Below are positions 26,094 to 64,000 of a DNA stretch of 64,000 bases, one piece after another. Below the pieces are notes generated by a model. The model saw only the letters and a program-made list of their open reading frames with translations. It was not told the origin of the DNA and did not search any database. A program made the position numbers and the translations under genes. Numbering within the stretch: the first letter of the stretch is position 1; each line of letters opens with the position of its first letter. Origin of the DNA: Mayamaea pseudoterrestris (Eukaryota > Bacillariophyta > Bacillariophyceae > Sellaphorales > Sellaphoraceae); contig BROI01000026.1 in the NCBI GenBank assembly GCA_027923505.1, positions 310,001-374,000 of the forward strand. Direction: 5' to 3'.

Positions 26094-26336
26094 TGCTTTC
26101 GAGTCAATAAAATGCCGCTCGTCGAAAGGATGTGGCCATGATGTATGCCATGGTTGACGTGAATCGGTCTCTGTCAATCCGTTGGAAACCGGCCTGGCGT
26201 GCAGTCGGGTCACGAATGTGAGTACCGGTAGGCCTTTCCGGTAATGGAGATCGCGATCCTGCTTGGCAACTTCAACCACGAGATGAACAACTTCATGCTT
26301 TGACAACCAATGTTGCGTTACTCCGGCATGGTCACC
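26094..26336. promoter_or_regulatory. Bidirectional promoter with TACCGGTA
   Basis: 243 bp between the condensin gene (-) and the lumen-type gene (+). The palindrome TACCGGTA at 26223-26230 lies near the middle, followed by TTCCGGTAA at 26236-26244. Confidence 0.5.
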
Positions 26337-38795: not shown

Positions 38796-38953
38796 CAATA
38801 TGCTCAGCACATTTAAGCAATATTTGCGCAATTGCATCTCGCGGTAAAAGGAGCTGTACTTACTGTTAGGTGCTATCGTAATGCAAGTCACGGAAGTATT
38901 ATATGTTACGGAGGAACAACAAACTGTAGGTTGTAGTCGCACCGGTCAAAGGT
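38796..38953. other. Short spacer between the karyopherin-like gene and the copia element
   Basis: 158 bp with GCACCGGTC at 38939-38947. It may include the left edge of the retroelement; no terminal repeat was recognised. Confidence 0.4.
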
Positions 38954-41900: not shown

Positions 41901-44400
41901 AGTACGTCAAGTTCGTCGCCAGTGCGTGTTGGCGTGTGACGATTGCGGTGCGTGATGCCGTCATCGTCGAATCGTTCGTCGAAAAATCCATAATCGTGAT
42001 CGCGTTCATCGAAATCGTCGTGCGCGTGCTCGACATCGTAAACAGTCGGGTCCCACGGCACATCCGACGTCATTATGACGGTCGGATACTTATCCAAATC
42101 ATCGAACGTGGGTTTCGTCACGTCCAAGTACACCAGGCCGTCGCGAATCGCCAATGGCAAAACGTAGCCTCCAATGTTCGTCGTAATTCGTTGCGTTCCG
42201 CCAAACATGGTCGGAATATCGTCGACGCGATGTCCCATTGCGCGCAATTGATTCGGGCAATGAATCGTCGGTCCGTCTCGCTTTAAAGCATACTGGTGAC
42301 ACAAAAGCAGAATGGTTTCGCCACTAAGGGTCTTTGCCAGTCCAGCTGCAGTGCCAATCTTGAGAGCTGGGACAATATGATCGTCAATACCAGTCACATC
42401 CACCTCGGCGTTCGTTTCCGAAACGACGAGCATGTCTCCTCCGCATAAGCCTCCGTTTGCGCCGCTGTCGATGAGCGCACCTTCGTTGATCCGCTCGTAG
42501 TGTGCGCGATTGACGCGCATACGACGATGCATGTTGAAGCTGAATGTACCTCGTCCGGTGTTATCAGTCGTCAACGATCCTGTCACTTGCTGAGTTGTAG
42601 TACTCGCATTATTCGCTTGCAGAACCGATCGTGCAGCCGTTTGGACTGACATTCCACTATTGCCTGGCTGAATATTAATCGTGCCAGGAACGCTTGCGTG
42701 ATCGTTCGCTACAGATTCCGTCGCGTGACGCTCTTGATGCGCCGCGTTGACTTGCGTCTGCGTCGTAGCCGTGCCTCGTTGGTTGCGCGGTCGCCATCCG
42801 TTTTCGGGTGTCTTGGGCGCCGTCGCACGCTTGTCCTTCAACTGCTTTCGCTGATCGAACTTCATCTCCAACCAGACTTCATCCTTCACGCTCGCGTGAG
42901 GTTTCTTCATGATCGCTGCAAATCGTTCCGCCGATAAGCCGCTTGGAGTCGCGCCGCCATTGCCGCCGCCGCCTCCTTTCGTTCCACTAGACTGCGCTTG
43001 ATTGATTGTGCGCTTAGTCTTCGTCGTCGATGGGTGCTTCTTGTCATACTTGATGCAGCACTCTTCTAAGTGCGCGTACAACTGCGCGAAATTGTCTTCC
43101 GAGTCGTGTTGCCCCATGTGTTTCTTGATGGCAATCATTCCGTCAAAACCTGCTAGCGAGGCGCTGAATCCAGTGTGCTCAGAGAAAGCGTCGCGTAGCA
43201 TGTCGTATCGTTGTAAACCTGTCAGAGCTTCTGCGTCCATTTCGAGCAGCCAGATGACTTTCTTGTAGAACAGTGCGAGAAATTCGATCGTCGGCCTTGA
43301 CCACTTCTCGGTCAGCCGCATTCCCTGCAGTTCCGTTCGCGCGCGTTCCTTCTCGATGTGAGCAGTAGCGCCTTCTTCGTATCGCGTTCGCAATCGTTGG
43401 TAGACTTCGCGTCCGTCCATCGTCTTCTTGAACTGCTGTACTGCGAGTGATGCAGACGGAGTTCGACAGTGCGTGAGAAAGATTCTGTATACAAACACAT
43501 TCTTCTTTGCATACGCCTTCTGTTCCTTCGGTCCCTTTTCCTTTGGGTCATAATCGTCGTCAAAGACTTCGTGGAAGTCGTGCAATGTAGCGATGACTTT
43601 CAACTCGGAAATCCACTGTTTCCACGAGGAATCCAGCTTCATTTCTTTACAATCCTTCGCCGAGAACTTGATAGACTTCGTAAATTGGTCTGAATACTTC
43701 TCGTCGTCTTCGTCGTCGCCGAGGTCCAATACGGATGTCGGTGACTGCTTCGTGTCCACGTCCACGCTCGTCGGTGGCACCTTGTCGGCCGAGTCGGGTT
43801 TCGACTCGTCGCCTTCGTTCGTTAGCGTGGAGTCCTTGGATTCGTCCTTCTTGGATTCCGTTTTGCTTTCTTTTGCTGGAGGTTTCGCTCCGCTTCCGCT
43901 GCCCACGCTCGCAATGTTGCGCGCTTGGACTCGTTCCTTCGCTCGTGCTGTGACGAACGTCGCCAGTGTTTCGGTGGTCAGTTGCGACCATATCTTGATG
44001 TCCGGCGACTCTTGCGCCAAATACCATTCGATCGCGTTCGTGATCGTGCGTTGTTTCATCTTCGTTAGCGAGTGTTCGCTCGTTTCCTGCGTGACATTGT
44101 CGCCATCGTCAGTCGTCGTCGTTGTCGTCGTCGTGACGTTCCACTTCGTCGCGAAATCGTCGTACTCCATCTCGATCAATTGCGTAAGCGATTCTACTCC
44201 GAGTTCGTCGAATAACTCCTTGAACTGAGGATCTTGGAAAACGCCTACGTTCTCTTCGTAAACATGCGCAAAAGCCGCGTCTTTCTGCGCGCGAGTTTCC
44301 GCCATCGTTGTCGTCGTGACAATGTTCTTGCTATCACCTGCGGAACTTTCCGGGCCAAGAACCAACGTGCGTCCACGTTACTTCGTAAATCAATAGTACT
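38954..44400 (-). mobile_element. Ty1/copia-type LTR retrotransposon (CoDi-like), broken
   Basis: Retroelement fossil on the minus strand. Parts in order from its 5' end: a gag-like region without a clear zinc knuckle; an aspartic protease (DSGANGG); an integrase with the DDE-type core (SDNAKSETGKAVRDLCRMYN); and a reverse transcriptase with RKARLVAGGH and the YVDDLA active-site box, followed by RNase H-side sequence. Protease-integrase-RT order identifies the copia superfamily; resemblance to the CoDi elements of diatoms is by memory of the family. It is broken, with roughly two or three disruptions and probably a shortened 3' end, yet most of the coding is open, so it is likely fairly young. 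No long terminal repeats were found by eye, and both end coordinates are approximate. It lies at the border between genes and satellites. Confidence 0.85.
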
Positions 44401-44944
44401 CTTCGTCGATAAAGTCTCTATGCCGAGGCAATGAGTCTCAAGACAGTGTTAATCTTGTAACTTGTAAATCAAATCGTTGCACCTTTCGCTTGTAGCTGTC
44501 CTTGGATGGCCAATCCAAGCTTGCAGTTGCTACAATACGAGAGACGAATAAATCGCTTTCTTAACTCTTCAAGCTTAGTAAGTCTGCTTGTTTCTACTCT
44601 ATATCGCACTAGTTTCAGCAATATGCTCGTTGAATCGCTTCGAAGCCGTCGCTGCCACGCATCACGCGATCGTGAGGCTGTGGTGAGCCGCGAGTGCCGC
44701 TGTGTCACCCTATCGGACATTCGGTGTGACTTGCCCGATTTTCGCTGTTTTCGTTCGCATCCTGCAAGACGTGCCGACTCGTCTCACGTTCGCCGTCTGA
44801 TTTTCTTCCACCATGATGAGACACCCTTAGCGTTTGTTACTGCTGCTATCACCATTGACTCTAATATCATCTGCAAACATCTAACAGGCTCCCTTACTTG
44901 GAATTGGTTCTACGTAGTCTATTTCCCATCCGCAACAAGGAAAT
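44401..44944. other. Spacer between the copia element and the satellite block
   Basis: About 540 bp with no convincing gene; open frames on both strands here are short and Arg/Ser-rich by composition. It may hold the 5' non-coding end of the retroelement. The satellite-like sequence starts near 44945. Confidence 0.4.
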
Positions 44945-45590
44945 CATTTGATTTGGGCATACACATGGCTCTGGGTATGGGCGTTTGAAAATTTCGGCAT
45001 CTGCTGGCTGAGACTGGTGACAAGTTGTCACCAATCACATTGCCATCTACTGAGCCACAAGCCAGTCAAATTTTCTTGTAGCGCACCTGAAATAAGGATG
45101 TTAGCACCATTCTAGCTTGATTTGGGCATACACGTGGCTCTACGTATGGGCATTTGAAAATATTGGTATCTGCCGGCTGAGACTGGTGACAAGTTATCAC
45201 CAGTCACATTGCAGACAACCAAGGGACCATCCAGTCAAGTTTTCTTGTAGCCCACCTGAATTAAGGATGTTAGCACCATTCTGGCTTGATTTGGTAATAC
45301 ACGTGGCTCTTGGTGTGGGTTTTTGAAAATAACGGCATCTGCGAGACTGGTGACAAGTTGTCACCAATCACATTGCAAACAAGCCAGTCAAATTTTCTTG
45401 TAGCGCACCTGAAATAAGGATGTTAGCACCATTCTAGCTTGATTTGGGCATACACGTGGCTCTAGGTATGGGCATTTGAAAATAACGGCATCTGTTGGCT
45501 GAGAAGTCAGAGACCATCCAGTCAAAGTTTCTTGTAGCGCACCTGAAAAAGGGAGCACCATTCTGGCCCCTAGATGGGCATTCAATGGAT
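44945..45590 (-). repeat. Diverged inverted copies of the 169-bp satellite (about 4)
   Basis: Copies begin near 44953, 45121, 45289 and 45443. Read on the minus strand they match the monomer of the 48.4-62.3 kb array: GGTGACAAGTTGTCACC palindrome, GGCTGAGACTGG, GGCATCTGC, TTGTAGCGCACCTGAA, AAGGATGTTAGCACCATTCT and TTTGGGCA. They are clearly more diverged than the main array and lack the second dyad (CTACAG...CTGTAG). Spacing is 168, 168 and about 154 bp. They look like an older, opposite-facing piece of the same satellite. Confidence 0.88.
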
Positions 45591-45918: not shown

Positions 45919-48384
45919 TTAGTGCTATGTGGAAGCTAGCCATGTCTGCCTAGAAGGCACCACTGGTGCACCAAGGTGGGAATGCTTCACATAATGGGGA
46001 TGGCCAAAGTTCTGTGGATGCTGCCGCTGCTGCTGCGTGACATACAGTCACATGGAATACAGCATATCTACTCCTGTGTTGCCAGGAACACATGAGTTGT
46101 CCAACATTGAATGTGTCATAGAACCTCAAGTATATCATGTTGAAAGGTGGCATTGGCTAAAATGACAATATGAGCCATAGTTTGATTGGTTTGGATTCAT
46201 AGACTGTGCTGTTGTTCCATTTGGCCCATCTACTCCCACAGCTTCCCAAAACTTGAGCTTGCCAGGTTTGTTTGTCTTTCTAGGCCTCATGGATAGCTTG
46301 GCTGGTGGTGACAATGTCTATATTGATGGGGATGCTCAGCGGACCTGGTGGCGTGGTGTGGTGTGGTGACATGATACTTAGCTATGTGGAAGCTAGCATG
46401 TCTGTTCCCAAAACTTGATGGATTTGCATGACCACCAAGGTTTTAGAGTTTGATAGACCTTACCACTAGCTTGGTTAAAGGTGGCAATGTTGCAGATGAT
46501 GGGGATGACCAAAGTTCTGCTTGCGCTGCCGCTGCTGCTGTGTGACAAACAGTCCCACGGAATACAGTGTCTCTACTCCTGTTTTGCCAGGAACACATGA
46601 GTTGTCCAACATTGAATGTGTCATAGTACCTCACGTATACCTTGTTGAAAGGTGGCATTGGCTAAAATGATAATCTGAGCCATAGTTTGATTGGTTTGGA
46701 TTCATAGACTGTGCTGTTGTTCTATTTGGCCCATCTACTCCCACAGCTTTCCCAAAACTTGAGCTTGTCAGGTTTGATTGGTATTGTTGGCCTCATCAAT
46801 AGTTTGGCCAATGGTGGCAATGTTGGTAATTGATGGGGATGCCCAGCTGACCTGGTGGCATGGTGTGGTGTGGCGACGTATGGGATACGTAGCTATGTGG
46901 AAGCTAGCATATCTACTCCCAAAACTTGAAGGATTTGCATGACCGCCAAGGTTGTAGAGGTTGATTGACCTTACCAAAAGCTTTTTGAAAGGTGGGAATG
47001 CTTCACATGATGGGATGGCCATAGTTTTGCGGGTGCTGTCACCGCTGCTGTGTGACATACAGTCGCAGAAAATACAGCGTATCTACTTCAGTTTTGCCAG
47101 GAAAACATGAGTTGTCCCACATTGAATGTGTCATAGTACCTTATGTATACCTTGTCGAATGGTGGCACTGGCTAAAATGACAAACAGAGCCATAGTTTGA
47201 TTGATTTGGATTCATAGACTGCGCTGTTGTTCTATCTGGCCCATCTACTCCCATGGCTTTCCCAAAACTTGAGCTTGCCAGGTTTGTTTGGTTTTGTTGG
47301 CTTCATTGATAGTTTGGCCGATGGTGGCGATGTTGGTAATTTATGGGGATGCCCAGCGGACCTGGTGGCGTGGTGTGGTGTGATGTGGTGTGGTGTGGCG
47401 ACGTACGGGATACTTAGCTATGTGGAAGCTAGCCATCCCAAAACTTGAAGGATTTGCATGACCGCCAAGGTTGTCAATGATGATTGACCTTACCAAAAGC
47501 TTCTGAAGGGTGGGAATGCTTCACATGATGGGAATGGCCAAAGTTCTGCAAATGCTGTTGCTGCTGCTGCTGCGTGACATACAGTCACATGGAATACAGC
47601 GTATCTACTCCTGTTTTGCCAGGAACACATGAGTCGTCCAACATTGTATATGTCATAGTAGCTCAGGTTTACCTTGTCGATAGGTGGCATTGGCTAAAAT
47701 GACAAACAGAGCCATAGTTTGATTGGTTTGGATTCATGGACTGCGCTGTTGTTCTATTTGGCCCATCTACTCCCATGGCTTTCTCATAACTTGAGCTTGC
47801 CAGGTTTGATTGGTTTTGTAGACTGCATTGATAGCATGACCGATGGTGGCAGTGTTGGTAATTGATGGGGATGCCCATCGGACCTGGTGGTGTGGTGTGG
47901 TGTGGTGTGGTGTGGCGACGTACGGCATACTTAGCTATGTGGAAGCTAGCATATCGACTCCCAAAACTTGAAGGATTTGCATGACCACCAAGGTTGTAGA
48001 CGTTGAAAAAACCTTACCAAAAGCTTTTTGAAAGGTGGGAATGCTTCACATGATGGGATAGCCAAAGTTTTGCGGGTGCTGTCACTGCTGCTGCGTTACA
48101 TACAGTCACATGGAATACAGCGTATATACTCCTGTTTTGCCAGGAACACATGAGTTGTCCAACATTGTATTTGTCATAGTAGCTCACGTATACCTTGTTG
48201 AAAGGTGGCATTGGCTAAATTGACAATCAGAGCCATAGTTTGATTGGTTTGGATTCATAGACTACACTGTTGTTCTCTTTGGCCCATCTACTCCCACGGC
48301 TTTCCCAAAACTTGAGCTTGCCGGGTTTGTTTGGTTTTGTAGGCTTCATTGATAGTTTGGCCCATGATGGCTATGTTGGTAATT
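45919..48384 (+). repeat. Tandem repeat of about 515 bp, nearly 5 copies
   Basis: The landmark CTATGTGGAAGCTAGC recurs near 45919, 46377, 46890, 47413 and 47932; GGCATTGGCTAAAATGA recurs near 46148, 46652, 47163, 47685 and 48207. Period about 505-525 bp, the variation partly from a GGTGT microsatellite of changing length (for example 47371-47397 and 47888-47917). Each unit also carries TGACATACAGTCACATGGAA and CTCCTGTTTTGCCAGGAACA. The last unit is cut by the 169-bp array at about 48385. Open frames on the minus strand (65-96 codons) repeat with the unit and are not genes. Confidence 0.9.
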
Positions 48385-51300
48385 GATGGTATTTGGTGAC
48401 AACTTGCCACCAGTCTCAGCCCGCAGATGCCATGACATTCAAACCTACCTACAGAAGGCCCTGTAGGTGCCCAAATTACACCAGAATGGTGCCAACATTA
48501 TTATTCAGGCTGCGCTACAAGATGGTAGGCTTGGCTGGTGTCTCAGGGGATGGCAATGTATTTGGTGACAACTTGTCACCAGTCTCAGCCCGCAGATGCC
48601 GTGACATTCAAACGCCCCTACAGCAAGCCCTGTAGGTGCCCGAAATACACCAGAATGGTGCCAACATCCATATTCAAGCTGCGCTACAAGATGGTAGGCT
48701 TGGCTGGTGTCTCACAGGATGGCAATGTATTTGGTGACAACTTGTCACCAGTCTCAGCCCACAGATGCCGTGACATTCAAACACCCCTACAACAAGCCCT
48801 GTAGGTCTCCAAATTACACCAGAATGGTGCCAACATCATTATTCTGGCTGCGCTACAAGATGGTAGGCTTGGCTGGTGTCTCAGGGGATGGCAATGTATT
48901 TGGTGACAACTCGTCACCAGTCTCAGCCCGCGGATGCCTTGACATTCAAACGCCCCTACAGCAATCCCTGTAGGTGCCCAAATTACACCAGAATGGTGCC
49001 CACATCCTTATTCAGGCTGCGCTACAAGATGGTAGGCTTGGCTGGTGTCTCACAGGATGGCAATGTATTTGGTGACAACTTGTCACCAGTCTCAGCCCGC
49101 AGATGCCGTGACATTCAAATGCCCCTACATTAAGCCCTGTAGGTGCCCAAATTACACCAGAATGGTGCAAACATTATTATTCAGGCTGCGCTACAAGATG
49201 GTAGGCTTGGCTGGTGTCTCACAGGATGGCAATGTATTTGGTGACAACTTGTCACCAGTCTCAGCCCGCAGATGCCGTGACATTCAAATGCCCCTACATT
49301 AAGCCCTGTAGGTGCCCAAATTACACCAGAATGGTGCCAACATCATTATTCAGGCTGCGCTACATGATGGTAGGCTTGGCAAGTGTCTCAGGGGATGGCA
49401 ATGTAATTGGTGACAACTTGTCACCAGTCTCAGCCCGCAGATGCCGTGACATTCAAACGCCCCTACAGCAAGCCCTGTAGGTGCCCAAAATACACCTGAA
49501 TGGTGCCAACATCATTATTCAGGCCGCGCTACAAGATGGTAGGCTTGGCAAGTGTCTCAGGGGATGGCAATGTATTTGGTGACAACTTGTCACCAGTCTC
49601 AGCCCGCAGATGCCATGACATTCAAACGCCCCTACAGCAAGCCCTTTAGGTTCCCAAAATACACCAGAATGGTGCCAACATCATCTTTCAGGCTGTGCTA
49701 CAAGATGGTAGGCTTGGCTGGTGTCTCACGGGATGGCAATGTATTTGGTGACAACTTGTCACCAGTCTCAGCCCGCAGATGCTGTGACATTCAAACGCCC
49801 CTACATTAAGCCCTGTAGGTGTCCAAATTACACCAGAATGGTGCCAACATCATTATTCAGGCTGCGCTACAAGATGGTAGGCTTGGGAAGTGTCTCAGGG
49901 GATGGCAATGTATTTGGTGACAACTTGTCACCAGTCTCAGCCCGCAGATGCCGTGACATTCAAACGCCCCTAAAGCTAGCCCTGTAGGTGCCCAAATTAC
50001 ACCAGAATGGTGCCAACATCATTATTCAGGCTGCGCTACAAGATGGTAGGCTTGGCAAGTGTCTCAGGGGATGGCAATGTATTTGGTGACAACTTGTCAC
50101 CAGTCTCAGCCCGCAGATGCCGTGACATTCAAACGCCCCTACAGCAAGCCCTGTAGGTGCCCAAAATACACCAGAATGGTGCCAACATCATTATTCAGGC
50201 TGCGCTACAAGATGGTAGGCTTGGCTGGTGTTTCAGGGAATGGCAATGTATTTGGTGACAACTTGTCACCAGTCTCAGCCCACAGATGCCGTGACATTCA
50301 AACGCCCCTACAGCAAGCCCTGTAGGTGCCCAAAATACACCAGAATGGTGCCAACATTATTATTCAGGCTGCGCTACAAGATGGTAGGCTTGGCTGGTGT
50401 CTCAGGGGATGGCAATGTATTTGGTGACAACTTGTCCCCATTCTCAGTCCGCAGATGACATGACATTCAAACGCCCCTACAGCAAGCCCTGTAGGTGCCC
50501 AAAATACACCAGAATGGTGCCAATATCATTTTTCAGGCTGAGCTACAAATTGGTAGGCTTGGCTGGTGTCTCAGGGGATGGCAATGTATTTGGTGACAAC
50601 TTGTCACCAGTCTCAGCCCGCACATGCCGTGACATTCAAACGCCCCTACAGCAAGCCCTGTAGGTGCCCAAAAAACACCAGAATGGTGCCAACATCATCA
50701 TTCAGGCTGTGCTACAAGATGGTAGGCTTGGCTGGTGTCTCACGGGATGGCAATGTATTTGGTGACAACTTGTCACCAGTCTCAGCCCGCAGATGCCGTG
50801 ACATTCAAACGCCCCTACAGCAAGCCCTTTAGGTGCCCAAATTACACCAGAATGGTGCCAACATTATTATTCAGGCTGCGCTACAAGATGGTAGGCTTGG
50901 CTGGTGTCTCAGGGGATGGCAATGTATTTGGTGACAACTTGTCACCAGTCTCAGCCCGCAGATGCCGTGACATTCAAACGCCCCTACAGCAAGCCCTGTA
51001 GGTGCCCGAAATACACCAGAATGGTGCCAACATCCATATTCAAGCTGCGCTACAAGATGGTAGGCTTGGCTGGTGTTTCAGGGAATGGCAATGTATTTGG
51101 TGACAACTTGTCACCAGTCTCAGCCCGCAGATGCCGTGACATTCAAACGCCCCTACAGCAAGCCCTGTAGGTGCCCAAAAAACACCAGAATGGTGCCAAC
51201 ATCATCATTCAGGCTGTGCTACAAGATGGTAGGCTTGGCTGGTGTCTCACGGGATGGCAATGTATTTGGTGACAACTTGTCACCAGTCTCAGCCCGCAGA

Positions 51301-54300
51301 TGCCGTGACATTCAAACGCCCCTACAGCGAGCCCTGTAGGTGCCCAAAATACACCAGAATGGTGCCAACATCATTATTTAGGCTGCGCTACAAGATGGTA
51401 GGCTTGGCTGGTGTCTCAAGGGTTGGTAATGTATTTGGTGACAACTTGTCACCAGTCTCAGCCCGCAGATGCCGTGACATTCAAACACCCCTACAGCAAG
51501 CCCTGTAGGTGCCCAAAATACACCAGAATGGTGCCAACATCATTATTCAGGCTGCGCTACAAGATGGTAGGCTTGGCTGGTGTCTCAGGGGATGGCAATG
51601 TATTTGGTGACAACTTGTCACCAGTCTCAGCCCGCAGATGCCGTGACATTCAAACGCCCCTACAGCAAGCCCTGTAGGTGCCCAAAATACACCAGAATGG
51701 TGCCAACATCATCATTCAGGCTGCGCTACAAGATGGTAGGCCTGGCTGGTGTCTCACAGAATGGCAATGTATTTGGTGACAACTTGTCACCAGTCTCAGC
51801 CCGCTGATGCCATGACATTCAAACGCCCCTACAGCAAGCCCTGTAGGTGCCCAAAATACAATAGAATGGTGCCAACATTATTATTCAGGCTGCGCTACAA
51901 GATGGTAGGCTTGGCTGGTGTCTTTGACTGTCACCCAGCGCAATTTGGTGACAACGTCACCCTCAGCTCACAAGATGGGGCTTGGCCTCAGCGCGAGACA
52001 CTACAGCAAGCCCTGTAGGTGCCCTAATTACACAAGAATGGTACCAACATCATTATTCAGGCTGCGCTACAAGATGGTAGGCTTGGCTGGTGTCTCCAGG
52101 GATGGCAATGTATTTGGTGACAACTTGTCACCAGTCTCAGCCCGCAAATGCCATGACATTCAAACGCCCCTACAGCAAGCCCTGTAGGTGCCCAAAATAC
52201 ACCAGGAAGGTGACAACATCCTTATTCAGGCTGCGCTACAAGATGGTAGGCTTGGCGGATGCCTCAGGGGACGGCAATGTATTTGGTGACAACTTGTCAC
52301 CAGTCTCAGCCCAAAGATGCCGTGACATTCAAATGCCCCTACAGCAAGCCCTGTAGGTGCCCAAAATACACCAGAATGGTGCCAACATCATTATTACGGC
52401 TGCGCTACAAGATGGCAGGCTTGGCTGGTGTCTCACATGATGGTAATGTATTTGGTGACAAATTGTCACCAGTCTCAGCCCGCAGATGCCGTGACATTCA
52501 AACGCCCCTACAGCAAGCCCTATAGGTGCCCAAAATACACTGGAATGGTGCCAACATTATAATTTAGGCTGCGCTACAAGATGGTAGGCTTGGCTGGTGT
52601 CTCAGGGGATGGCAATGTATTTGGTGACAACTTGTCCCCATTCTCAGTCCGCAGATGACATGACATTCAAACGCCCCTACAGCAAGCCCTGTAGGTGCCC
52701 AAAATACACCAGAATGGTGCCAACATCATTATTCAGGCTGCGCTACAAGATGGTAGGCTTGGCTGGTGTCTCAGGGGATGGCAATGTAATTGGTGACAAC
52801 TTGTCACCAGTCTCAGCCCGCAAATGCCATGACATTCAAACGCCCCTACAGCAAGCCCTGTAGGTGCCCAAAATACACCAGAATGGTGCCAGCATCATTA
52901 TTCAGGCTGCGCTACAAGATGGTAGGCTTGGCTGGTGTCTCAGGGGATGGCAATGTATTTGGTGACAACTTGTCACCAGTCTCAGCCCGCAAATGCCAGG
53001 ACATTCAAACGCCCCTACAGCAAGCCCTGTAGGTGCCCAAAATACACCAGAATGGTGCCAACATCATTATTCAGGCTGCGCTACAAGATGGTAGGCTTGG
53101 CTGGTGTCTCAGGGGATGGCAAATGTATTTGGTGACAACTTGTCACCAATCTAAGCCCGCAGATGCCGTGACATTCAAACGCCCCTACAGCAAGCCCTGT
53201 AGGTGCCCAAAATACACCAGAATGGTGCCAACATCATTATTCAGGCTGCGCTACAAGATGGTAGGCTTGGCTGGTGTCTCAGGGGATGGCAATGTATTTG
53301 GTGACAACTTGTCACCAGTCTCAGCCCGCAGATGCCATGACATTCAAACGCCCCTACAGCAAGCCCTGTAGGTGCCCCAAACTACACCAGAATGGTGCCT
53401 TCACTATTGTTAAGGCTGCGCTACAAGATGGTAGGCTTGGCTGTTGTCTCATGGGGTGGCGAAAGTATTTGGTGACAACTTGTCACCAGTCTCAGCCCGC
53501 AGATGCCGTGACATTCAAACGCCCTACAGCAAGCCCTGTCACGTTACACCAGAATGGTGCCAGCATCATTATTCAGGCTGCGCTACAAGATGGTAGGCTT
53601 GGCTGGTGTCTCAGGGGATGGCAAAGTATTTGGTGACAACTTGTCACCAGTCTCAGCCCGCAGATGCCGTGACATTCAAACGCCCCTACAGCAAGCCCTG
53701 TAGGTGCCTAATTATACCAGAATGGTGCCAACATCATTATTCAGGCTGCGCTACAAATGATAGGCTTGGCTGGTGTCTCAGGGGATGGCAATGTATTTGG
53801 TGACAACTTGTCACCAGTCTCAGCCCGCAGATGCCGTGACATTCAAACGCCCCTACAGCAAGCCCTGTAGGTGCCCAAAATACACCAGAATGGTGCCAAC
53901 ATCATTATTCAGGCTGCGCTACAAGATGGTAGGCTTGGCTGGTGTCTCAGGGGATGCAATGTATTTGGTGACAACTTGTCACCAGTCTCAGCCCGCGGAT
54001 GCCGTGACATTCAAACGCTCCTACAGCAAGCCCTGTGGGGTGCCCAAAATACACCAGAATGGTGCCAACATCATTATTCAGGCTGCGCTACAAGATGGTA
54101 GGCTTGGCTGGTGTCTCAGGGGATGGCAATGTATTTGGTGACAACTTGTCACCAGTCTCAGCCCGCAGATGCCGTGACATTCAAACGCCCCTACAGCAAG
54201 CCCTGTAGGTCGCGAAATACACCAGAATGGTGCCAGCATCATTATTCAGGCTGCGCTACAAGATGGTAGGCTTGGCTGGTGTCTCAGGGGATGGCAATGT

Positions 54301-57300
54301 ATTTGGTGACAACTTGTCACCAGTCTCAGCCCGCAGATGCCGTGACATTCAAACGCCCCTACAGCAAGCCCTGTAGATGCCCAAAATACACCAGAATGGT
54401 GCCAACATCATTATTCAGGCTGCGCTACAAGATGGTAGGCTTGGCTGGTGTCTCAGGGGATGGCAATGTTTTGGTGACAACTTGTCACCAGTCTCAGCCC
54501 GCAGATGCCGTGACATTCAAACGCCCCTACAGCAAGCCCTGTAGGTGCCCAAAATACACCAGAATGGTGCCAACATCATTATTCAGGCTGCGCTACAAGA
54601 TGGTATGCTTGGCTGGTGTCTCAGGGGATGGCAATGTATTTGGTGACAACTTGTCACCAGTCTCAGCCCGCAGATGCCTTGACATTCAAACGCCCCTACA
54701 GCAAGCCCTGTAGGTGCCCAAAATACACCAGAATGGTGCCAACATCATTATTCAGGCTGCGCTACAAGATGGTAGGCTTGGCTGGTGTCTCAGTGGATGG
54801 CAATGTATTTGGTGACAACTTGTCACCAGTCTCAGCCCGCAGATGCCGTGACATTCAAACACCCCTACAGCAAGCCCTGTAGGTGCCCAAAATACACCAG
54901 AATGGTGCCAACATTATTATTCAGGCTGCGCTACAAGATGGTAGGCTTGGCTGGTGTCTCAGGGGTTAGCAATGTATTAGGTGACAACTTGTCACCAGTC
55001 TCAGCCCGCAGATGCCGTGACATTCAAACACCCCTACAGCAAGCCCTGTAGGGTGCCCAAAATACACCAGAAGGTGCCAACATCATTATTCAGGCTGCGC
55101 TACAAGATGGTAGGCCTGGCTGGTGTCTCAGGGATGGCAATGTATTTGGTGACAACTTGTAACAGTCTCAGCCCGCAGATGCCGTGACATTCAAACGCCC
55201 CTACAGCAAGCCCTGTATGCGCCCAAAATACACCAGAATGGTGCCAACATCATTATTCCGGCTGCGCTACAAGATGGTAGGCTTGGCGGTGTCTCAGGGG
55301 GATGGCAATGTATTTGGTGACAACTTGTCACCAGTCTCAGCCCGCAGATGCCGTGACATTCAAACGCCCCTACAGCAAGCCCTGTAGGTCCAAAATACAC
55401 CAGAATGGTGCCTCCATCATTATTCAGGCTGCGCTACAAGATGGTAGGCTTGGCTGGTGTCTCAGGGGATTGCAATGTATTTGGTGACAACTTGTCACCA
55501 GTCTCAGCCCGCAGATGCCGTGACATTCAAACGCCCCTACAGCAAGCCCTGTAGGTGCCCAAAATACACCAGAATGGTGCCAACATCATTATTCAGGCTG
55601 CGCTACAAGATGGTAGGCTTGGCTGGTGTCTCAGGGGATGGCAATGTATTTGGTGACAACTTGTCACCAGTCTCAGCCCGCAGATGCCGTGACATTCAAA
55701 CGCCCCTACAGCAAGCCCTGTAGGTGCCCAAAATACACCAGAATGGTGCCAACATCATTATTCAGGCTGCGCTACAAGATGGTAGGCTTGGCTGGTGTCT
55801 CAGTTGATGGCAATGTTATTGGTGACAACTTGTCACCAGTCTCAGCCCGCAGATGCCGTGACATTCAAACGCCCCTACAGCAAGCCCTGTTGGTGCCCAA
55901 AATACACCAGAATGGTGCCAACATCATTATTCAGGCTGCGCTACAAGATGGTAGGCTTGGCTGGTGTCTCAGGGGATGGCAATGTATTTGGTGACAACTT
56001 GTCACCAGTCTCAGCCCGCAGATGCCGTGACATTCAAACGCCCCTACAGCAAGCCCTGTAGGTGCCCAAAATACACCAGAATGGTGCCAACATCATTATT
56101 CAGGCTGCGCTACAAGATGGTAGGCTTGGCTGGTGTCTCACGGGATGGCAATGTATTTGGTGACAACTTGTCACCAGTCTCAGCCCGCAGATGCCGTGAC
56201 ATTCAAACGCCCCTACAGCAAGCCCTGTAGGTGCCCAAAATACACCAGAATGGTGCCAACATCATTATTCAGGCTGCGCTACAAGATGGTAGGCTTGGCT
56301 GGTGTCTCAGGGGATGGCAATGTATTTGGTGACAACTTGTCACCAGTCTCAGCCCGCAGATGCCGTGACATTCAAACGCCCCTACAGCAAGCCCTGTAGG
56401 TGCCCAAAATACACCAGAATGGTGCCAACATCATTATTCAGGCTGCGCTACAAAATGGTAGGCTTGGCTGGTGTCTCAGGGTGTGGCAATGTATTTGGTG
56501 ACAACTTGTCACCAGTCTCAGCCCGCAGATGCCGTGACATTCAAACGCCCTACAGCTAGCCCTGTAGGTGCCCACAGTACACCAGAATGGTGCCAACATC
56601 ATATTAAGGCTGCGCTACAAGATGGTAGGCTTGGCTGGTGTCTCAGGGGATGGCAATGTATTTGGTGACAACTTGTCACCAGTCTCAGCCCGCAGATGCC
56701 GTGACATTCAAACGCCCCTACAGCAAGCCCTGTAGGTGCCCAAAATACACCAGAATGGTGCCAACATCATCATTCAGGCTGCGCTACAAGATGGTAGGCT
56801 TGGCTGGTGTCTCAGTTGATGGCAATGTATTTGGTGACAACTTGTCACCAGTCTCAGCCCGCAGATGCCGTGACATTCAAACGCCCCTACAGCAAGCCCT
56901 GTAGGTGCCCAAAATACACCAGAATGGTGCCAACATCATTATTCAGGCTGCGCTACAAGATGGTAGGCTTGGCTGGTGTCTCAGGGGATGGCAATGTATT
57001 TGGTGACAACTTGTCACCAGTCTCAGCCCCCAGATGCCGTGACATTCAAACGCCCCCTACAGCAAGCCCTGTAGGTGCCCAAAATACACCAGAATGGTGC
57101 CAACATCATTAATCAGGCTGCGCTACAAGATGGTAGGCTTGGCTGGTGTCTCAGGGGATGGCAATGTATTTGGTGACAACTTGTCACCAGTCTCAGCCGG
57201 CAGATGCCGTGACATTCAAACGCCCCTACAGCAAGCCCTGTAGGTGCCCAAAATACACCAGAATGGTGCCAACATCATCATTCAGGCTGCGCTACAAGAT

Positions 57301-60300
57301 GGTAGGCTTGGCTGGTGTCTCAGTTGATGGCAATGTATTTGGTGACAACTCGTCACCAGTCTCAGCCCGCAGATGCCGTGACATTCAAATGCCCCTACAG
57401 CAAGCCCTGTAGGTGCCCAAAATACACCAGAATGGTGCCAACATCATTTTAGGCTGTTCTAAAAAATGGTAGGCTTGGCTGGTGTCTCAGGGGTTAGCAA
57501 TGTATTAGGTGACAACTTGTCACCAGTCTCAGCCCGCAGATGCCGTGACATTCAAACGCCCCTACAGCAAGCCCTGTAGGTACCCAAAATACACCAGAAT
57601 GGTGCCAACATCTCTATTCAGGCTGCGCTACAAAATGGTAGGCTTGGCTGGTGTCTCAGGGGATGGCAATGTATTTGGTGACAACTTGTCACCAGTCTCA
57701 GCCCGCAGATGCCGTGACATTCAAACGCCCCTACAGCAAGCCCTGTAGGTGCCCAAAATACACCAGAATGGTGCCAACATCATCATTCAGGCTGCGCTAC
57801 AAGATGGTAGGCTTGGCTGGTGTCTCACGGGATGGCAATGTATTTGGTGACAACTTGTCACCAGTCTCAGCCGGCAGATGCCGTGACATTCAAACGCCCC
57901 TACAGCAAGCCCTGTAGGTGCCCAAAATACACCAGAATGGTGCCAACATCATTATTCAGGCTGCGCTACAAGATGGTAGGCTTAGCAATGTCTCAGGGCC
58001 GCAATATACGGATGGTAATGTATTTGGTGACAACTTGTCACCAGTCTCAGCCCGCAGATGCCGTGACATTCAAACGCCCCTACAGCAAGCCCTGTAGGTG
58101 CCCAAAATACACCAGAATGGTGCCAACATCATTATTCAGGCTGCGCTACAAGATGGTAGGCTTGGCTGGTGTCTCAGGGGATGGCAATGTATTTGGTGAC
58201 AACTTGTCACCAGTCTCAGCCCGCAGATGCGGTGACTTTCAAATGCCCCTACAGCAAGCCCTGTAGGTGCCCAAAAAACACTAGAATGGTGCCAACATCA
58301 TCATTCAGGCTGCGCTACAAGATGGTAGGCTTGGCTGGTGTCTCAGGGGATGGCAATGTATTTGGTGACAACTTGTCACCAGTCTCAGCCCGCAGATGCC
58401 GTGACATTCAAACGCCCCTACAGCAAGCCCTGTAGGTGCCCAAAATACACCAGAATGGTGCCAACATCATCATTCAGGCTGCGCTACAAGATGGTAGGCT
58501 TGGCTGGTGTCTCAGGGGATGGCAATGTATTTGGTGACAACTTGTCACCAGTCTCAGCCCGCAGATGCTGGACATTCAAACGCCCCTACAGCAAGCCCTG
58601 TAGGTGCCCAAAATACACCAGAATGGTGCCAACATCATTATTCAGGCTGCGCTACAAGATGGTAGGCTTGGCTGGTGTCTCAGGGGATGGCAATGTATTT
58701 GGTGACAACTTGTCACCAGTCTCAGCCCGCAGATGCCATGACATTCAAACGCTCCGCAAAGCCCTGTAGGTGCCCAAAATACACCAGAATGGTGCCAACA
58801 TTATTATTCAGGCTGCGCTACAAGATGGTAGACTTGGCTGGTGTCTCAGGGATGGCAATGTATTTGGTGACAACTTGTCACCAGTCTCAGCCCCGCAGAT
58901 GCCGTGACATTCAAACTCAGCCCCTACAGCAAGCCCTGTAGGTGCCCAAAATACACCAGAATGGTGCCAACATCATTATCTCAGGCTGCGCTACAAGATG
59001 GTAGGCTTGGCTGGTGTCTCAGGGGATGGCAATGTATTTGGTGACAACTTGTCACCAGTCTCAGCCCGCAGATGCCGTGACATTCAAACGCCCCTACAGC
59101 AAGCCCTGTAGGTGCCCAAAATACACCAGAATGGTGCCAACATCATTATTCAGGCTGCGCTACAAGATGGTAGGCTTGGCTGGTGTCTCAGGGGATGGCA
59201 ATGTATTTGGTGACAACTTGTCACCAGTCTCAGCCCACAGATGCCTTGACATTCAAACACCAGAATGGTGCCAAAATCATTATTCCAGCTTCGCTACAAG
59301 ATGGTAGGCTTGGCTGGTGTCTCAGGGGATGGCAATGTATTTGGTGACAACTTGTCTCCAGTCTCAGCCGGCAGTGGCCATGATATTCAAAGGCCCCTAC
59401 AGCAAGCCCTTTAGGTGCCCAAATAATACCAGAATGGTGCCAACATCATTATTCAGGCTGCGCTACAAGATGGTAGGCTTGGTTGGTGTCTCAGGGGATG
59501 GCAATGTATTTGGTGACAACTTGTCACCAGTCTCAGCCCGCAGATGCCGTGACATTCAAACGCCCCTACAGCAAGCCCTGTAGGTGCCCAAAATACACCA
59601 GAATGGTGCCAACATCATTATTCAGGCTGCGCTACAAGATGGTAGGCTTGGCTGGTGTCTCAGGGATGGCAATGTATTTGGTGACAACTTGTCACCAGTC
59701 TCAGCCTGCAGATGCCGTGACATTAACAAACACCCTACAGCAAGCCCTGTAGGTGCCCAAAATACACCAGAATGGTGCCAACATCATTATTCAGGCTGCG
59801 CTACAAGATGGTAGGCTTGGCTGGTGTCTCAGGGGATGGCAATGTATTTGGTGACAACTTGTCACCAGTCTCAGCCCGCAGATGCCGTGACATTCAAACG
59901 CCCCTACAGCAAGCCCTGTAGGTGCCCAAAATACACCAGAATGGTGCCAACATCATTATTCAGGCTGCGCTACAAGATGGTAGGCTTGGCTGGTGTCTCA
60001 GGGGATGGCAATGTATTTGGTGACAACTTGTCACCAGTCTCAGCCCGCAGATGCCGTGACATTCAAACGCCCCTACAGCAAGCCCTGTAGGTGCCCAAAA
60101 TACACCAGAATGGTGCCAACATCATTATTCAGGCTGCGCTACAAGATGGTAGGCTTGGCTGGTGTCTCAGGGGATGGCAATGTATTTGGTGACAACTTGT
60201 CACCAGTCTCAGCCCGCAGATGCCGTGACATTCAAACGCCCCTACAGCAAGCCCTGTAGGTGCCCAAAATACACCAGAATGGTGCCAACATCCTTATTCC

Positions 60301-62287
60301 GGCTGCGCTACAAGATGGTAGGCTTGGCTGGTGTCTCAGGGGATGGCAATGTATTTGGTGACAACTTGTCACCAGTCTCAGCCCGCAGATGCCGTGACAT
60401 TCAAACGCCCCTACAGCAAGCCCTGTAGGTGCCCAAAATACACCAGAATGGTGCCAACATCATTATTCAGGCTGCGCTACAAGATGGTAGGCTTGGCTGG
60501 TGTCAGACATTGCGGATGACATCTTGTCCGAGTCTCAGCCCGACCAGCCCTCCAAGGCATGGCCAATGTATTTTGGGGACGGGTACTTGTCACCAGTCTC
60601 AGCCCCCAGATGCCGTGACATTCAAATGCCCCCTACAGCAAGCCCTGTAGGTGCCCAAAATACACCAGAATGGTGCCAACATCATTATTCAGGCTGCGCT
60701 ACAAGATGGTAGGCTTGGTTGGTGTCTCAGGGGATGGCAATGTATTTGGTGACAACTTGTCACCAGTCTCAGCCCGCAGATGCCGTGACATTCAAACGCC
60801 CCTACAGCAAGCCCTGTAGGTGCCCAAAATACACCAGAATGGTGCCAACATCATTATTCCGGCTGCGCTACAAGATGGTAGGCTTGGCGGGTGTGTCAGG
60901 GGATGGCAATGTATTTGGTGACAACTTGTCACCAGTCTCAGCCCGCAGATGCCGTGACATTCAAACGCCCCTATACAGCAAGCCCTGTAGATGCCCAAAA
61001 TACACCAGAATGGTGACAACATCCTTATTCCGGCTGCGCTACAAAATGGTAGGCTTGGCTGGTGTCTCAGGGGATGGCAATGTATTTGGTGACAACTTGT
61101 CACCAGTCTCAGCCCGCAGGTGCCTTGACATTCAAACACCCCTACATCAGGTCCTGTAGATGCCCAAAATACACCAGAATGGTGACAACATCCTTATTCC
61201 GGCTGCGCTACAAAATGGTAGGCTTGGCTGGTGTCTCAGGGGATGGCAATGTATTTGGTGACAACTTGTCACCAGTCTCAGCCCGCAGGTGCCTTGACAT
61301 TCAAACACCCCTACATCAGGTCCTGTAGGTGCCCATATTACACCAGACTGGTGCCTACATCATTATTTAGGATGCGCTACAAGATGGTAGGCTTGGTTGG
61401 TGTCTCAGGAGACTGCAATGTGATTGGTGACAACTTGTCACCAGTCTCAGCCCGCAGATGCGGTGACTTTCAAATGCCCCTACAGCAAGCCCTGTAGGTG
61501 CCCAAAATACACCAGAATGGTGCCATCATCATTAGTAAGGCTGCGCTACATGATGGTAAGCTTGGCTGGTATCTCAGGGGATGACAATGTATTTGGTGAC
61601 AACTTGTCACCAGTCTCAGCCTGCAGATGCTGTGACATTCAAACGCCCCCACAGCAAGCCCTGTAGGTGCCCAAAATACACCAGAATGGTGCCAACATCA
61701 TTATGCAGGCTACGCTACAAGATGGTAGGCTTGGCTGGTGTCTCAGGGGATGGCAATGTATTTGGTGACAACTTGTCACCAGTCTCAGCCCACAGATGCT
61801 GAGACATTCAAGCGCCCCTACAGCAAGCCCTGTAGGTGCCCAAAATACACCAGAATGGTGCCAACATCAATATTCAGGCTGCGCTACAAGATGGTAGGCT
61901 TGGCTGGTGTCTCAGGGGATGGCAATGTATTTGGTGACAACTTGTCACCAGTCTCAGCCCGCAGATGCCGTGACATTCAAACGCCCCTACAGCAAGCCCT
62001 GTAGGTGCCCAAAATACACCAGAAGGGTGCCAACATCATTATTCAGGCTGCGCTACAAGATGGTAGGCTTGGCTGGTGTCTCAGGGGATGGCAATGTATT
62101 TGGTGACAACTTGTCACCAGTCTCAGCCCGCAGATGCCATGACATTCAAACGCCCCTACAGCAAGCCCTGTAGATGCCCAAAATACACCGGAATGGTGCC
62201 AACATCATCATTTAGGTTGTGGTAAAAAATGATAGGCTTGGCTGGTGTCTCAGGGGATGGCAATGTATTTGGTGACAACTTGTCACC
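48385..62287 (+). repeat. 169-bp satellite array, about 82 head-to-tail monomers
   Basis: Period is exactly 169 bp over most of 13.9 kb, with a few units of 167-172 bp and occasional larger changes. Landmarks in order per monomer: GATGGCAATGTATTTGGTGA, the palindrome GGTGACAA-C-TTGTCACC, AGTCTCAGCCCGCAGATGCC, GTGACATTCAAACGCCC, the dyad CTACAG-CAAGCC-CTGTAG, GTGCCCAAAATACACCAGAA, TGGTGCCAACATCATTATTC, AGGCTGCGCTACAAGATGG and TAGGCTTGGCTGGTGTCTCA. The left third (to about 53 kb) has more variants; much of 55.4-60.5 kb is nearly identical. Variant units occur near 51918-52015, 57985-58030, 59240-59275 and 60500-60600. Because 169 is one more than a multiple of 3, each unit opens an 88-codon frame staggered by one base from the last; these are not genes. 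The length is close to a nucleosome repeat and to centromeric monomers in other eukaryotes, but its role is unknown. Confidence 0.97.
51918..52015 (+). repeat. Variant satellite monomer with both dyads kept
   Basis: In this unit the sequence on both sides of the palindrome is replaced (TTTGACTGTCACCCAGCGCA before it, CTCACAAGATGGGGCTTGGC after it). A dyad remains (GGTGAC-AAC-GTCACC), and CTACAGCAAGCCCTGTAG is unchanged. Unit length about 172 bp. Confidence 0.8.
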
Positions 62288-62359
62288 TGTTCCTGGTAAA
62301 ACAGGAGTAGATACCCTGTATTCCGTGCGACTGTATGTCACACAGCTGCAGCGGCAGCA
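62288..62359 (-). repeat. Inverted fragment of the 515-bp repeat
   Basis: Starting directly after the last GGTGACAACTTGTCACC, the sequence CCTGGTAAAACAGGAGTAGA ... TGTATGTCACACAGCTGCAG is the reverse complement of part of the 515-bp unit (compare 46018-46092). The 515-bp family thus borders the 169-bp array on both sides, in opposite orientations. Confidence 0.8.
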
Positions 62360-64000
62360 CCCAGGCAGGAAGCAGTGACTTGTTTGAATGATCAATGATG
62401 CACTGAAGCCTCCTTCAGGAAGTGGTGGGAGCCTGGTTGGTGTTTGGCAGTCAACTGGTGTGTTTGTGTTCAAACTGTCTCTGGTGCACTGGCCAGAGCC
62501 TGGCCAGAGCGTGGTGCCTGAATCCATTCTTGGGATGTAGAACTGATGCTTACATATATTTTTGAGCTTCTGCGCATGAATGGATTATTCCAAGTGCTTG
62601 TGGGTGCCAGAGCAGTGGCATATAGCAGAAACAATGGCTAGGCCCATCATTTTATAATTCATAAAACATTGAAATGGAGACTATACCAATCCATGGCGCC
62701 CTTCCACAACCATGGCAGGACACCATTGGCTTGTTTGACTGATCATTGATCCACTGAAGCCTCCTTCAGCAAGTGGTGGAAGCCTGGTTGGTGTTTGGCA
62801 GTCAACTGGTGTGTTTGTTTTAATACAGTTTTTGGAGCATTGGCCAGAGCTTGGCCAGAGCTTGGTGCCTGAAATCAATTCTTGGGATGTAGAACAGTCA
62901 CTAACATTTATATTTTGGGTTTCTGCGCAACAATGAATCATTCCAAGTGCTTGTGGGTGCCAGAGCAAGTGGCATATAGCAGGAACAATGGGTAGGCCCA
63001 TCATTTTATGGTTCATAAAACAATGAAATGGAGACTATATCAATCCATGGCGCCCTTCCACTACCAAAGCAGGACAGCAGTGGCTTGTTTAACTGATCAA
63101 TGATGCACTGAAGCCTCCTTCAGCAAGTGGTGGGAGTCTGGTTGGTGTTTGGCAGTCACCTGGTGCGGTCGTTTTCACACAGTCTCTGGAGCATTGGCCA
63201 GAGCTTGGCCAGAGCTTGGTGCCTGAAATCCAGTATTGGCATGTAGAACAGTCACTAACATTTATATTTCGGGTTTCTGCGCAAGAATGGATCATTCCAA
63301 GTGCTTGTGGGTGCCAGAGCAAGTGGCATATAGCAGGAACAATGGCTAGGCCCATCATTTTATGGTTCATAAAACAATGAAATGGAGACTATACTGTGCC
63401 ATGGCGCCCTTCCAGTAACATAGCAGGACAGCAGTGGCTTGTTTGATTGATTAATGATGCACTGAAGCCTCCTTCCGCAAGTGGTGGAAGCCTGGTTGGT
63501 TTTTGGCAGTCAGCTGGTGTGGTCGTTTTCACACAGTCTCTGGAGCATTGGCCAGAGCTTGGCCAGAGCTTCGTGCCTGAAATCCATTGTTGGGATGTAG
63601 AACAGTCACTAACATTTATATTTTGGGTTTCTGCGCAAGAATGGATCATTCCAAGTGCTTGTGGGTGCCAGAGCAAGTGGCATATAGCAGGAACAATGAA
63701 TAGGCCCATCATTTTATGGTTCATAAAACAATGAAATGGAGACTATATCAATCCATGGCGCCCTTCCACTACCATGGCAGGACAGCATTGGCGTGTTTGA
63801 CTGATCAATGATGCACTGAAGCCTCCTTCAGCAAGTGGTGGGAGCCTGGTTGGTGTTTGGCAGTCACCTGGTGCGGTCGTTTTCACACAGTCTCTGGAGC
63901 ATTGGCCAGAGCTTGGCTTGAGTGTGGTACCTGAAATCCAGTATTGGCATGTAGAACAGTCACTTACATATATGTTTGGGTTTCTGCGCAAGAATGGATT
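62360..64000 (+). repeat. 354-bp tandem repeat, about 4.6 copies, continues beyond window
   Basis: CACTGAAGCCTCCTTC recurs near 62401, 62752, 63106, 63460 and 63814 (spacing 351, 354, 354, 354). Other landmarks: TTGGCCAGAGCTTGGCCAGA (an internal short duplication), GGGTTTCTGCGCAAGAATGG, TTCCAAGTGCTTGTGGGTGC, GGCCCATCATTTTATGGTTC. The first unit is the most diverged. 354 is a multiple of 3, so minus-strand open frames of 82-123 codons recur in register; each is closed by stops and looks non-coding. Runs off the right edge. Confidence 0.93.

Follow-up and report, generated by a model that had tools for sequence, protein, structure and literature searches.

The 169-bp satellite that fills much of the right part of the window (the whole 64,000-nucleotide stretch of contig C26 analysed here) probably represents a dispersed family that makes up numerous small islands of silent heterochromatin within gene-rich chromosomes, as judged from sequence features. 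Close to 5% of this compact 30-Mb genome (about 1.4 Mb, or 4.7% of 30.6 Mb) is this one nucleosome-length satellite, designated A, whereas the diatom centromeres so far described, in the available parts of the published accounts, are short, AT-rich and non-repetitive. The A islands are scattered, CpG-depleted and almost identical in sequence between contigs. They offer a small system for asking how satellites move between chromosomes, how sharp silent domains persist between active genes, and whether dispersed arrays can act as many small centromeres.

A sequence-only reading of this DNA had described a 169-bp period and about 82 head-to-tail monomers starting at position 48385. Tandem Repeats Finder (TRF) recovered this array with 82.1 copies, 91% matches and a score of 19614, starting 4 bases further right, and the autocorrelation at lag 169 inside the array was 0.75; within the window's first 40 kb, no lag between 20 and 1499 gave a value above 0.27. 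The unit is about 51% G+C and, as had been proposed, about one nucleosome in length. With a fixed unit, long head-to-tail arrays and many copies, A is a satellite. A protein-coding role for A was rejected, as 169 is not divisible by 3 and the array's longest stop-to-stop frame has 151 codons, and no structured RNA from Rfam matched at gathering score in positions 40001-64000.

The A array is the core of an island of about 22 kb (about 44.95-67.4 kb), the right end of which lies outside the window. The island also contains a 510-bp array (P), a 354-bp array (Q) and, in inverted orientation, two arrays from a related 169-bp family, one to the left of P (B) and the other beyond Q (Table 1). The B and A consensus sequences agreed at 78-81% over their aligned parts. 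Long open frames lie outside both island edges, among the frames listed (about 103.5-107.7 kb of the 114 kb examined was listed in part), with about 250 bp between the last satellite piece and the next open frames, and a copia-like element is present on the left side (Pfam RVT_2, E 6.5e-13; the integrase-core match was under the Pfam cut-off). The long open frames and copia-like element named as neighbours in the earlier reading were thus found, but the A array does not follow directly on the copia-like element, since the B (44948-45504) and P (45973-48389) arrays intervene.

Table 1. Satellite features of the island, in window coordinates.
Feature	Position	Strand	Evidence
B array: 169-type satellite related to the A unit, inverted relative to A, 3.4 copies	44948..45504	-	TRF, consensus comparison, repeat map
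P array: 510-bp satellite, about 4.7 copies	45973..48388	+ (arbitrary)	TRF with longer period limit; genome-wide relatives
A array: 169-bp satellite, 82.1 copies	48389..62287	+	TRF, autocorrelation, genome-wide copies
First perfect A-array copy of palindrome TGGTGASAASTTSTCACCA	48563..48581	none	pattern count versus shuffling
Inverted P fragment, 73 bp, at A/Q junction	62290..62362 (C26:372290-372362)	-	genome-wide P match; repeat map
Q array: 354-bp satellite, 7.3 copies in total, to 64957 (C26:374957), beyond the window	62364..64000	+	TRF; genome-wide relatives

The core of the A unit matched 8,543 places in the genome (4,422 forward and 4,121 reverse), with 0 matches for a reversed-pattern control. 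We sampled these places through variant patterns, and 170 positions (all 128 variant-pattern places, 38 of 115 unit-search matches and 4 of 100 listed core places), merged at 25 kb, gave 75 clusters on 31 of the 41 contigs. The other unit-search matches were left out because they were neighbours of, or partial pieces at, places already included, and the 16 places of one variant pattern all fell inside clusters already found by the unit search. With a Chao1 value of 94, we estimate about 90 loci (88-94), each with about 91-97 units (15-16 kb), or one per 325-345 kb of genome. Array size varies, and the A array at C26:152 kb, for example, is 6.4 kb long.

The sequence-only reading had listed a centromere core among its options and had called for a genome-wide monomer count and a search for one large array per chromosome. 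The count revealed scattered clusters, and 75 sampled clusters in both orientations, seven of them on contig C1, do not support one large array per chromosome, the count depending on correct assembly of C1. Telomere repeats were present at 1 of the 20 contig ends fetched (the start of C11); contigs are therefore not whole chromosomes and the array count is per contig. The roughly ninety similar scattered blocks indicate that the window array is not a chromosome's single centromere. A subtelomeric position, also suggested earlier, did not hold, as the array is interstitial between long open frames and neither end of C26 carries TTAGGG-type repeats. The C11 telomere is adjoined by a different satellite, S181, though this one also lies beside A arrays elsewhere.

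Of 261 unit matches, we left out the 31 that fell short of full length and compared the others. Mean unit identity within arrays was 94.7% in the window, 94.9% on C10 and 97.5% on C14, and units of the window array were 94.8%, 95.7% and 94.3% identical to those on C10, C14 and C9, respectively. At four of the five loci compared, identities ranged over 93.6-97.5%, both inside a locus and from one to another; the second C26 array was more diverged (89.8% within, 92.1% versus the window array). Units of separate arrays are thus about as similar as units of one array, there is little array-specific sequence, and the A units evolve in concert. Copying of whole arrays as blocks was rejected, since unit order gave no prominent diagonal when arrays were compared; nor was any higher-order repeat conspicuous in the A arrays. 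Divergence from the window-array consensus was 0.6-3.1% for units 31-70, 2.6-3.9% for the first 20 and 3.5-6.0% for the last 11, with units 21-25 (7.6%) departing from this interior/edge trend, and 20 consecutive units at least 98% alike on C10, like the 97.5% identity among C14 units, indicate some local homogenisation. Unequal exchange within arrays would maintain uniform interiors, and exchange between loci, by ectopic conversion or re-insertion of excised circles, would spread units and equalise them across chromosomes.

The CpG observed/expected ratio was 0.34 in A, 0.36 in P and 0.21 in Q, versus 1.10 in both flanks. The drop was seen in all 22 of the 1-kb windows of the island (maximum 0.47) and ended sharply on both sides, and unique DNA next to other islands (C14, C21 and C26) had ratios of 0.94-1.13. 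Outside the 9 B units, which were excluded from this count, transitions occurred in 129 of 1,753 cells at CpG positions versus 281 of 17,304 cells at C/G positions outside CpG. CpG depletion and an excess of CpG transitions are therefore confined to the satellite. CpG loss could also have been inherited from one founder, though the transition excess among the units of today points to a process still under way. Because of this CpG footprint, an interstitial heterochromatin-like block, corresponding to the 'knob' among the options raised earlier, fits the array best, and CpG methylation would silence the islands.

Two centromeric interpretations were weighed against this one. In the first, to which we give a modest chance, most A arrays would be passengers and one array or cluster per chromosome would be the centromere, or would surround an AT-rich core. 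This is consistent with a nucleosome-length monomer with dyad symmetry, several satellite families side by side, a CENH3-like gene in the genome and the array-dense contigs C10, C30 and C33. However, no array per contig is singled out by sequence, open frames surround the window island, which is only 22 kb long, and the A unit itself is not AT-rich at about 51% G+C. Across the 114 kb examined, no 500-bp stretch had a G+C below 0.408, so this region has no marked AT-rich core.

In the second, which we consider unlikely, the A arrays would be units of a repeat-based holocentromere, or of polycentric chromosomes: each would carry CENH3 and spindle attachment would occur at numerous small sites, as it does through Tyba arrays in Rhynchospora. 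The A satellite resembles published descriptions of Tyba in its nucleosome-length unit and its many gene-interspersed arrays averaging 15-20 kb: the units are 169 and 172 bp (PMC11538461, available part), and our estimates of 15-16 kb of satellite and 325-345 kb of genome for each locus compare with a Tyba mean of 18.2 kb and mean spacing of 374 kb in R. breviuscula (PMC10954556, available part). The near equality of identity within and between arrays, the conserved dyad and the CENH3-like histone encoded at C2:130 kb also point in this direction, although the CENH3 call is soft, as the 60 of its 177 PDB matches that were listed were all named H3 and none CENP-A. The even distribution of Tyba in the available text of PMC11538461 contrasts with that of A, whose arrays, in our incomplete sample, are not spread evenly over every chromosome. 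Spaces between sampled clusters within contigs (n=44) were shorter and skewed (median 142 kb, mean 217 kb) and not more regular than random (CV 0.94 versus 0.88), and cluster numbers were uneven between contigs (p 0.0045), with the sizes of 20 of the 41 contigs interpolated for these statistics. No array was sampled on C5, C19, C20, C24, C25, C28, C31 or C35-C37, ten of the 41 contigs with about 16% of the total length, in this incomplete sample, an outcome with P of about 2e-6 under an even spread (the same interpolated sizes applying). This uneven distribution and the contigs lacking a sampled array leave centromeric activity of every array a minority reading. It is correspondingly improbable that the A arrays are CENH3-bearing centromere units with a palindromic box, in some 90 small arrays among genes that would have evolved independently of those in sedges, in a lineage belonging to neither land plants nor animals. 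In Phaeodactylum tricornutum, which is likely of the same broad lineage, centromeres are short, AT-rich and non-repetitive in the available text of PMC7082073, unlike the repetitive A arrays of moderate G+C with many per contig.

We also considered whether P, A and Q form a large mobile composite transposing as one block. Junctions of P(-) with Q(+) are repeated on C12, C13, C16 and C26, and the order A, Q, further 169-type array is seen once more at 152-161 kb on C26. Q loci occurred within 20 kb of sampled A clusters more frequently than expected at random (8/21, p 0.001), as did P loci (6/20, p 0.014; 3/20 within 10 kb, p 0.11), where locus counts are lower bounds and some contig sizes were estimated. 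However, the majority of P and Q loci are away from any sampled A cluster, order and orientation differ between loci (C27, C13), and the last array at C26 161 kb runs the opposite way to B in the window. Furthermore, the A array has no long frame, and three islands, with flanks partly fetched, had no common non-satellite boundary sequence in a filtered listing. A composite of this kind is therefore improbable, and dispersed heterochromatin-like islands remain our preferred interpretation.

Within the A unit, a 19-bp palindrome, TGGTGASAASTTSTCACCA, had 83 matches in the window at no more than 2 mismatches (80 in A, 3 in B), versus 0.02 expected by shuffling. Mean conservation of its 17-base core was 98.7%, versus 95.7% elsewhere, which placed it fourth among 152 windows of the unit. 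The retained palindrome is a putative site for a dimeric protein and may help to position nucleosomes or compact the array. Changes on both sides of the palindrome were found in 4/64 cells in 9 B units, and as variants in one C26 block; this evidence comes from few B units. Two other inverted repeats of the A unit paired poorly in B, the first in 57% of 63 cells and the second in 44% of 45. As the first of these also has 17 cells changed on both sides, it may still be a paired feature, but it was given no weight. A hairpin of the whole unit was rejected as a selected feature, since the consensus folded as DNA was not stabler than shuffles (z -0.69). Another satellite, R346, has a palindrome centre in common with A. 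As R346 has no overall homology to A (reverse score 18 versus a shuffled mean of 17.9; forward 25 versus 18.0, shuffled maximum 28), this remains a remark.

Among known satellites, alpha satellite has a unit of 171 bp. A is similar in its near-nucleosome unit length but differs in having no one-array-per-chromosome pattern, little array-specific homogenisation and no standout higher-order repeat. The available text on PpSat1 and PpSat2 of Phytophthora parasitica (PMC7290008) likewise describes stramenopile satellite families with arrays on several scaffolds, but with other unit lengths and hundreds of copies, in contrast to thousands here. Among the titles and abstract openings listed for diatom centromeres, satellites and holocentric chromosomes, none describes the A satellite, and a long-read study of T. 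pseudonana and P. tricornutum (PMC8147415) uses, in its main text as available, no word starting with 'satellite'. As to the host, a diatom is plausible: the genome has 53 exon-level matches to the chlorophyll-binding family, and the best solved relatives of one encoded protein are the fucoxanthin proteins Fcpb5 and FCP-D (249 and 248 bits), which come from Chaetoceros.

The 169-bp array described by the sequence-only reading was confirmed in location and period. This main array, A, comprises 82.1 copies with 91% matches, and autocorrelation at lag 169 reached 0.75 within it, against a maximum of 0.27 across all lags over the window's first 40 kb. Its scope exceeded what that reading could see. 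Reading past the window with a repeat map showed a 22-kb island that extends to the right beyond the window and combines A with a related satellite, B, and two further satellites, P and Q. The consensus units of A and B aligned without gaps (78-81% identity over BLAST-aligned parts; 71-72% for single units). The island's neighbours are, on the left, a copia-like element together with a 1,406-codon frame and, on the right, a 402-codon frame starting ~250 bases past the last satellite piece; the 1,406- and 402-codon frames had no Pfam match. Further right is a frame that we take to resemble leucyl-tRNA synthetase, and the window also holds RNA polymerase frames of the Rpb2 type as well as one for a condensin II subunit. 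The chlorophyll-binding family gave 53 exon-level matches in the genome, and the best solved relatives of one such protein were the fucoxanthin proteins Fcpb5 and FCP-D, suggesting a diatom or a near relative.

Features of the satellite island, in order from left to right, and other loci discussed (positions lacking a contig prefix are in window numbering)
Feature	Position	Orientation	Copies or extent
Island 1: B, 169-type		minus	3.4 copies
Island 2: P, 510 bp			4.7 copies
Island 3: A, 169 bp	48389-62287	plus	82 copies
Island 4: P fragment		inverted	73 bp
Island 5: Q, 354 bp			7.3 copies
Island 6: short A-like piece
Island 7: B		minus	6.7 copies
Island 8: small pieces of P and A
Rpb2-type and condensin II subunit frames	15210-18854 and 24669-26345
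Copia-like frames	39076-44377
Presumed leucyl-tRNA synthetase-like frame	74.4-77.2 kb
R satellite, 346 bp	C26:1-3000
A locus, smallest size cited	C26:152 kb		6.4 kb
42/105/210-bp tandem arrays	C26:~415.6-423.2 kb (105.6-113.2 kb in window numbering)	inverted arrangement	large
A array on C1	C1:609.8-638.2 kb		~28 kb if unbroken (read in part)
Single A array on C9	C9:163064-166233	reverses at ~165,170
Telomeric CCCTAA repeats, then S satellite	C11:1-500
H3 variant	C2:130344-130610

The ratio of observed to expected CpG, 1.10 in each flank, fell to 0.34 (A), 0.36 (P) and 0.21 (Q), and was also low (0.14-0.46) in two further satellites, S (181 bp) and R, and in the other A arrays read. All 22 1-kb windows in the island were at or below 0.47, against one of 81 flank windows below 0.6 (0.39), and the shift was sharp at both island edges. 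C-to-T and G-to-A changes in A units affected 129 of 1,753 CpG cells versus 281 of 17,304 other C or G cells. Loss of CpG together with excess CpG transitions is the known signature of long-standing methylation at CpG sites. The copia-like frames adjoining this CpG-poor island had ratios of 1.45-1.70, above the flanks, suggesting that the element is young or was never methylated; no paired LTR of at least 30 bases was found within 38600-45300.

A 26-base core of A (up to two mismatches) matched 4,422 times in forward and 4,121 times in reverse orientation in the 30.6-Mb assembly of 41 contigs, in which the window spans bases 310001-374000 of C26, a contig of 424,661 bases; the core read backwards matched nowhere in the genome. 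At 169 bases per match, A totals ~1.44 Mb, or 4.7% of the assembly. Loci were mapped through rarer single-base variants of A (38, 9, 18, 16 and 47 places), supplemented by 38 of 115 unit matches and 4 of 100 core-match places listed. The 170 sampled points formed 75 clusters on 31 contigs. Chao1 estimated 94 loci, or 88 using four variant samples alone (38, 9, 18 and 47 places), and matches divided by estimated loci give an average locus of ~91-97 units (15-16 kb). Ten contigs, ~16% of the length (20 of 41 lengths interpolated), had no sampled cluster, with a probability of ~2e-6 under even spread; contigs carried unequal numbers of clusters (p 0.0045); and the 44 gaps separating clusters were no more regular than random. 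The A family is therefore dispersed and uneven. The centromere core listed first by the sequence-only reading was not borne out by this dispersal, with seven clusters in 3.0 Mb on C1; C10 carries seven in 1.07 Mb. This distribution argues against a centromere with one array per chromosome, and some monocentric role for A arrays is unlikely.

We identified a candidate CENH3 on C2, an H3 variant with an H3-alignable histone fold, one additional residue in loop 1, and a loop-1 tryptophan (RWQ where H3 has RFQ). An extra loop-1 residue and a tryptophan are the usual look of CENH3. It is only a candidate because its best 60 of 177 PDB matches were all named H3 and none CENP-A.

A repeat-based holocentromere built of A arrays would resemble Tyba of Rhynchospora, for which the excerpts consulted give a 172-bp unit (PMC11538461) and, in R. 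breviuscula, arrays averaging 18.2 kb at a mean spacing of 374 kb (PMC10954556). A is near Tyba in unit length and mean array size, and the 325-345 kb of genome per estimated locus is near Tyba spacing. However, the measured gaps, with a median of 142 kb and a mean of 217 kb, are shorter and skewed relative to that spacing, and the uneven distribution and array-free contigs also count against this arrangement, which we regard as very improbable. Array size alone proves nothing, because non-centromeric arrays of a centromeric satellite in Luzula also average ~20 kb, according to the portion consulted (PMC11538461). In kind, A is one of the dispersed satellite families and shows features of heterochromatin; it is probably a plain dispersed methylated satellite. 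No description of a comparable satellite in this lineage was found in the partial texts retrieved by our search of the literature on diatom satellites and centromeres.

To compare arrays, we used 230 full-length units from five loci. Mean identity was 94.7% inside the window array, and 94.8%, 95.7% and 94.3% (plus units; 93.6% for minus units) between it and the arrays on C10, C14 and C9, respectively. Internally, the C14 array was tighter (97.5%) and the second C26 array looser (89.8%). Units 31-70 of the window array were nearest the consensus (0.6-3.1% divergence), its ends were more diverged (2.6-3.9% and 3.5-6.0%), and units 21-25 formed one divergent group (7.6%). No unit order common to different arrays was found. 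On C10, 20 neighbouring units ran at 98% or above, and therefore some local amplification occurs there. These unit sequences suggest movement of A units between loci; unequal exchange would act within arrays, with traffic between loci sufficient to blur array-specific variants.

P and Q each have at least ~20 further loci in the genome. Excluding the window, 8 of 21 Q loci (2.2 expected, p 0.001) and 6 of 20 P loci (2.0 expected, p 0.014) had a sampled A cluster no more than 20 kb away; at a limit of 10 kb, 3 of 20 P loci did (p 0.11). Inverted P adjoining Q recurred on C12, C13, C16 and C26, and the fifth family, S, adjoined A inside contigs C1, C10 and C21. Telomere repeats were seen at one of 20 contig ends, with S directly after them; S also occurs at the starts of C4 and C9. 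Orientation switched inside islands on C9 (at 165.17 kb) and C1, and B and A were opposed on C21. All satellite periods fell near multiples of 170-180 (169, 181, 354 as 2x177, 510 as 3x170 and 346 as 2x173), a regularity across few families that may reflect nucleosome spacing. The 42/105/210-bp arrays near the C26 end have several frames open on both strands and a CpG ratio of 0.61.

The palindrome TGGTGASAASTTSTCACCA occurred 83 times in the window at up to two mismatches versus 0.02 expected, copies that are not independent events because nearly all are the array itself. Conservation of its 17-base core was 98.7% versus 95.7%, ranking fourth among 152 windows of the unit. In B units the palindrome was 95% paired, with both arms changed in 4 of 64 cells; two other A inverted repeats were 57% and 44% paired. 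P and S had no inverted repeat with arms of at least 6 and a short spacer, and those in Q, three or four in number, were unrelated. This pattern points to a putative binding site for a dimeric protein. The CpG-poor R satellite that opens C26, without overall homology to A, carries a perfect palindrome of 27 bp that matches the A palindrome at its centre, ACAAGTTGT.
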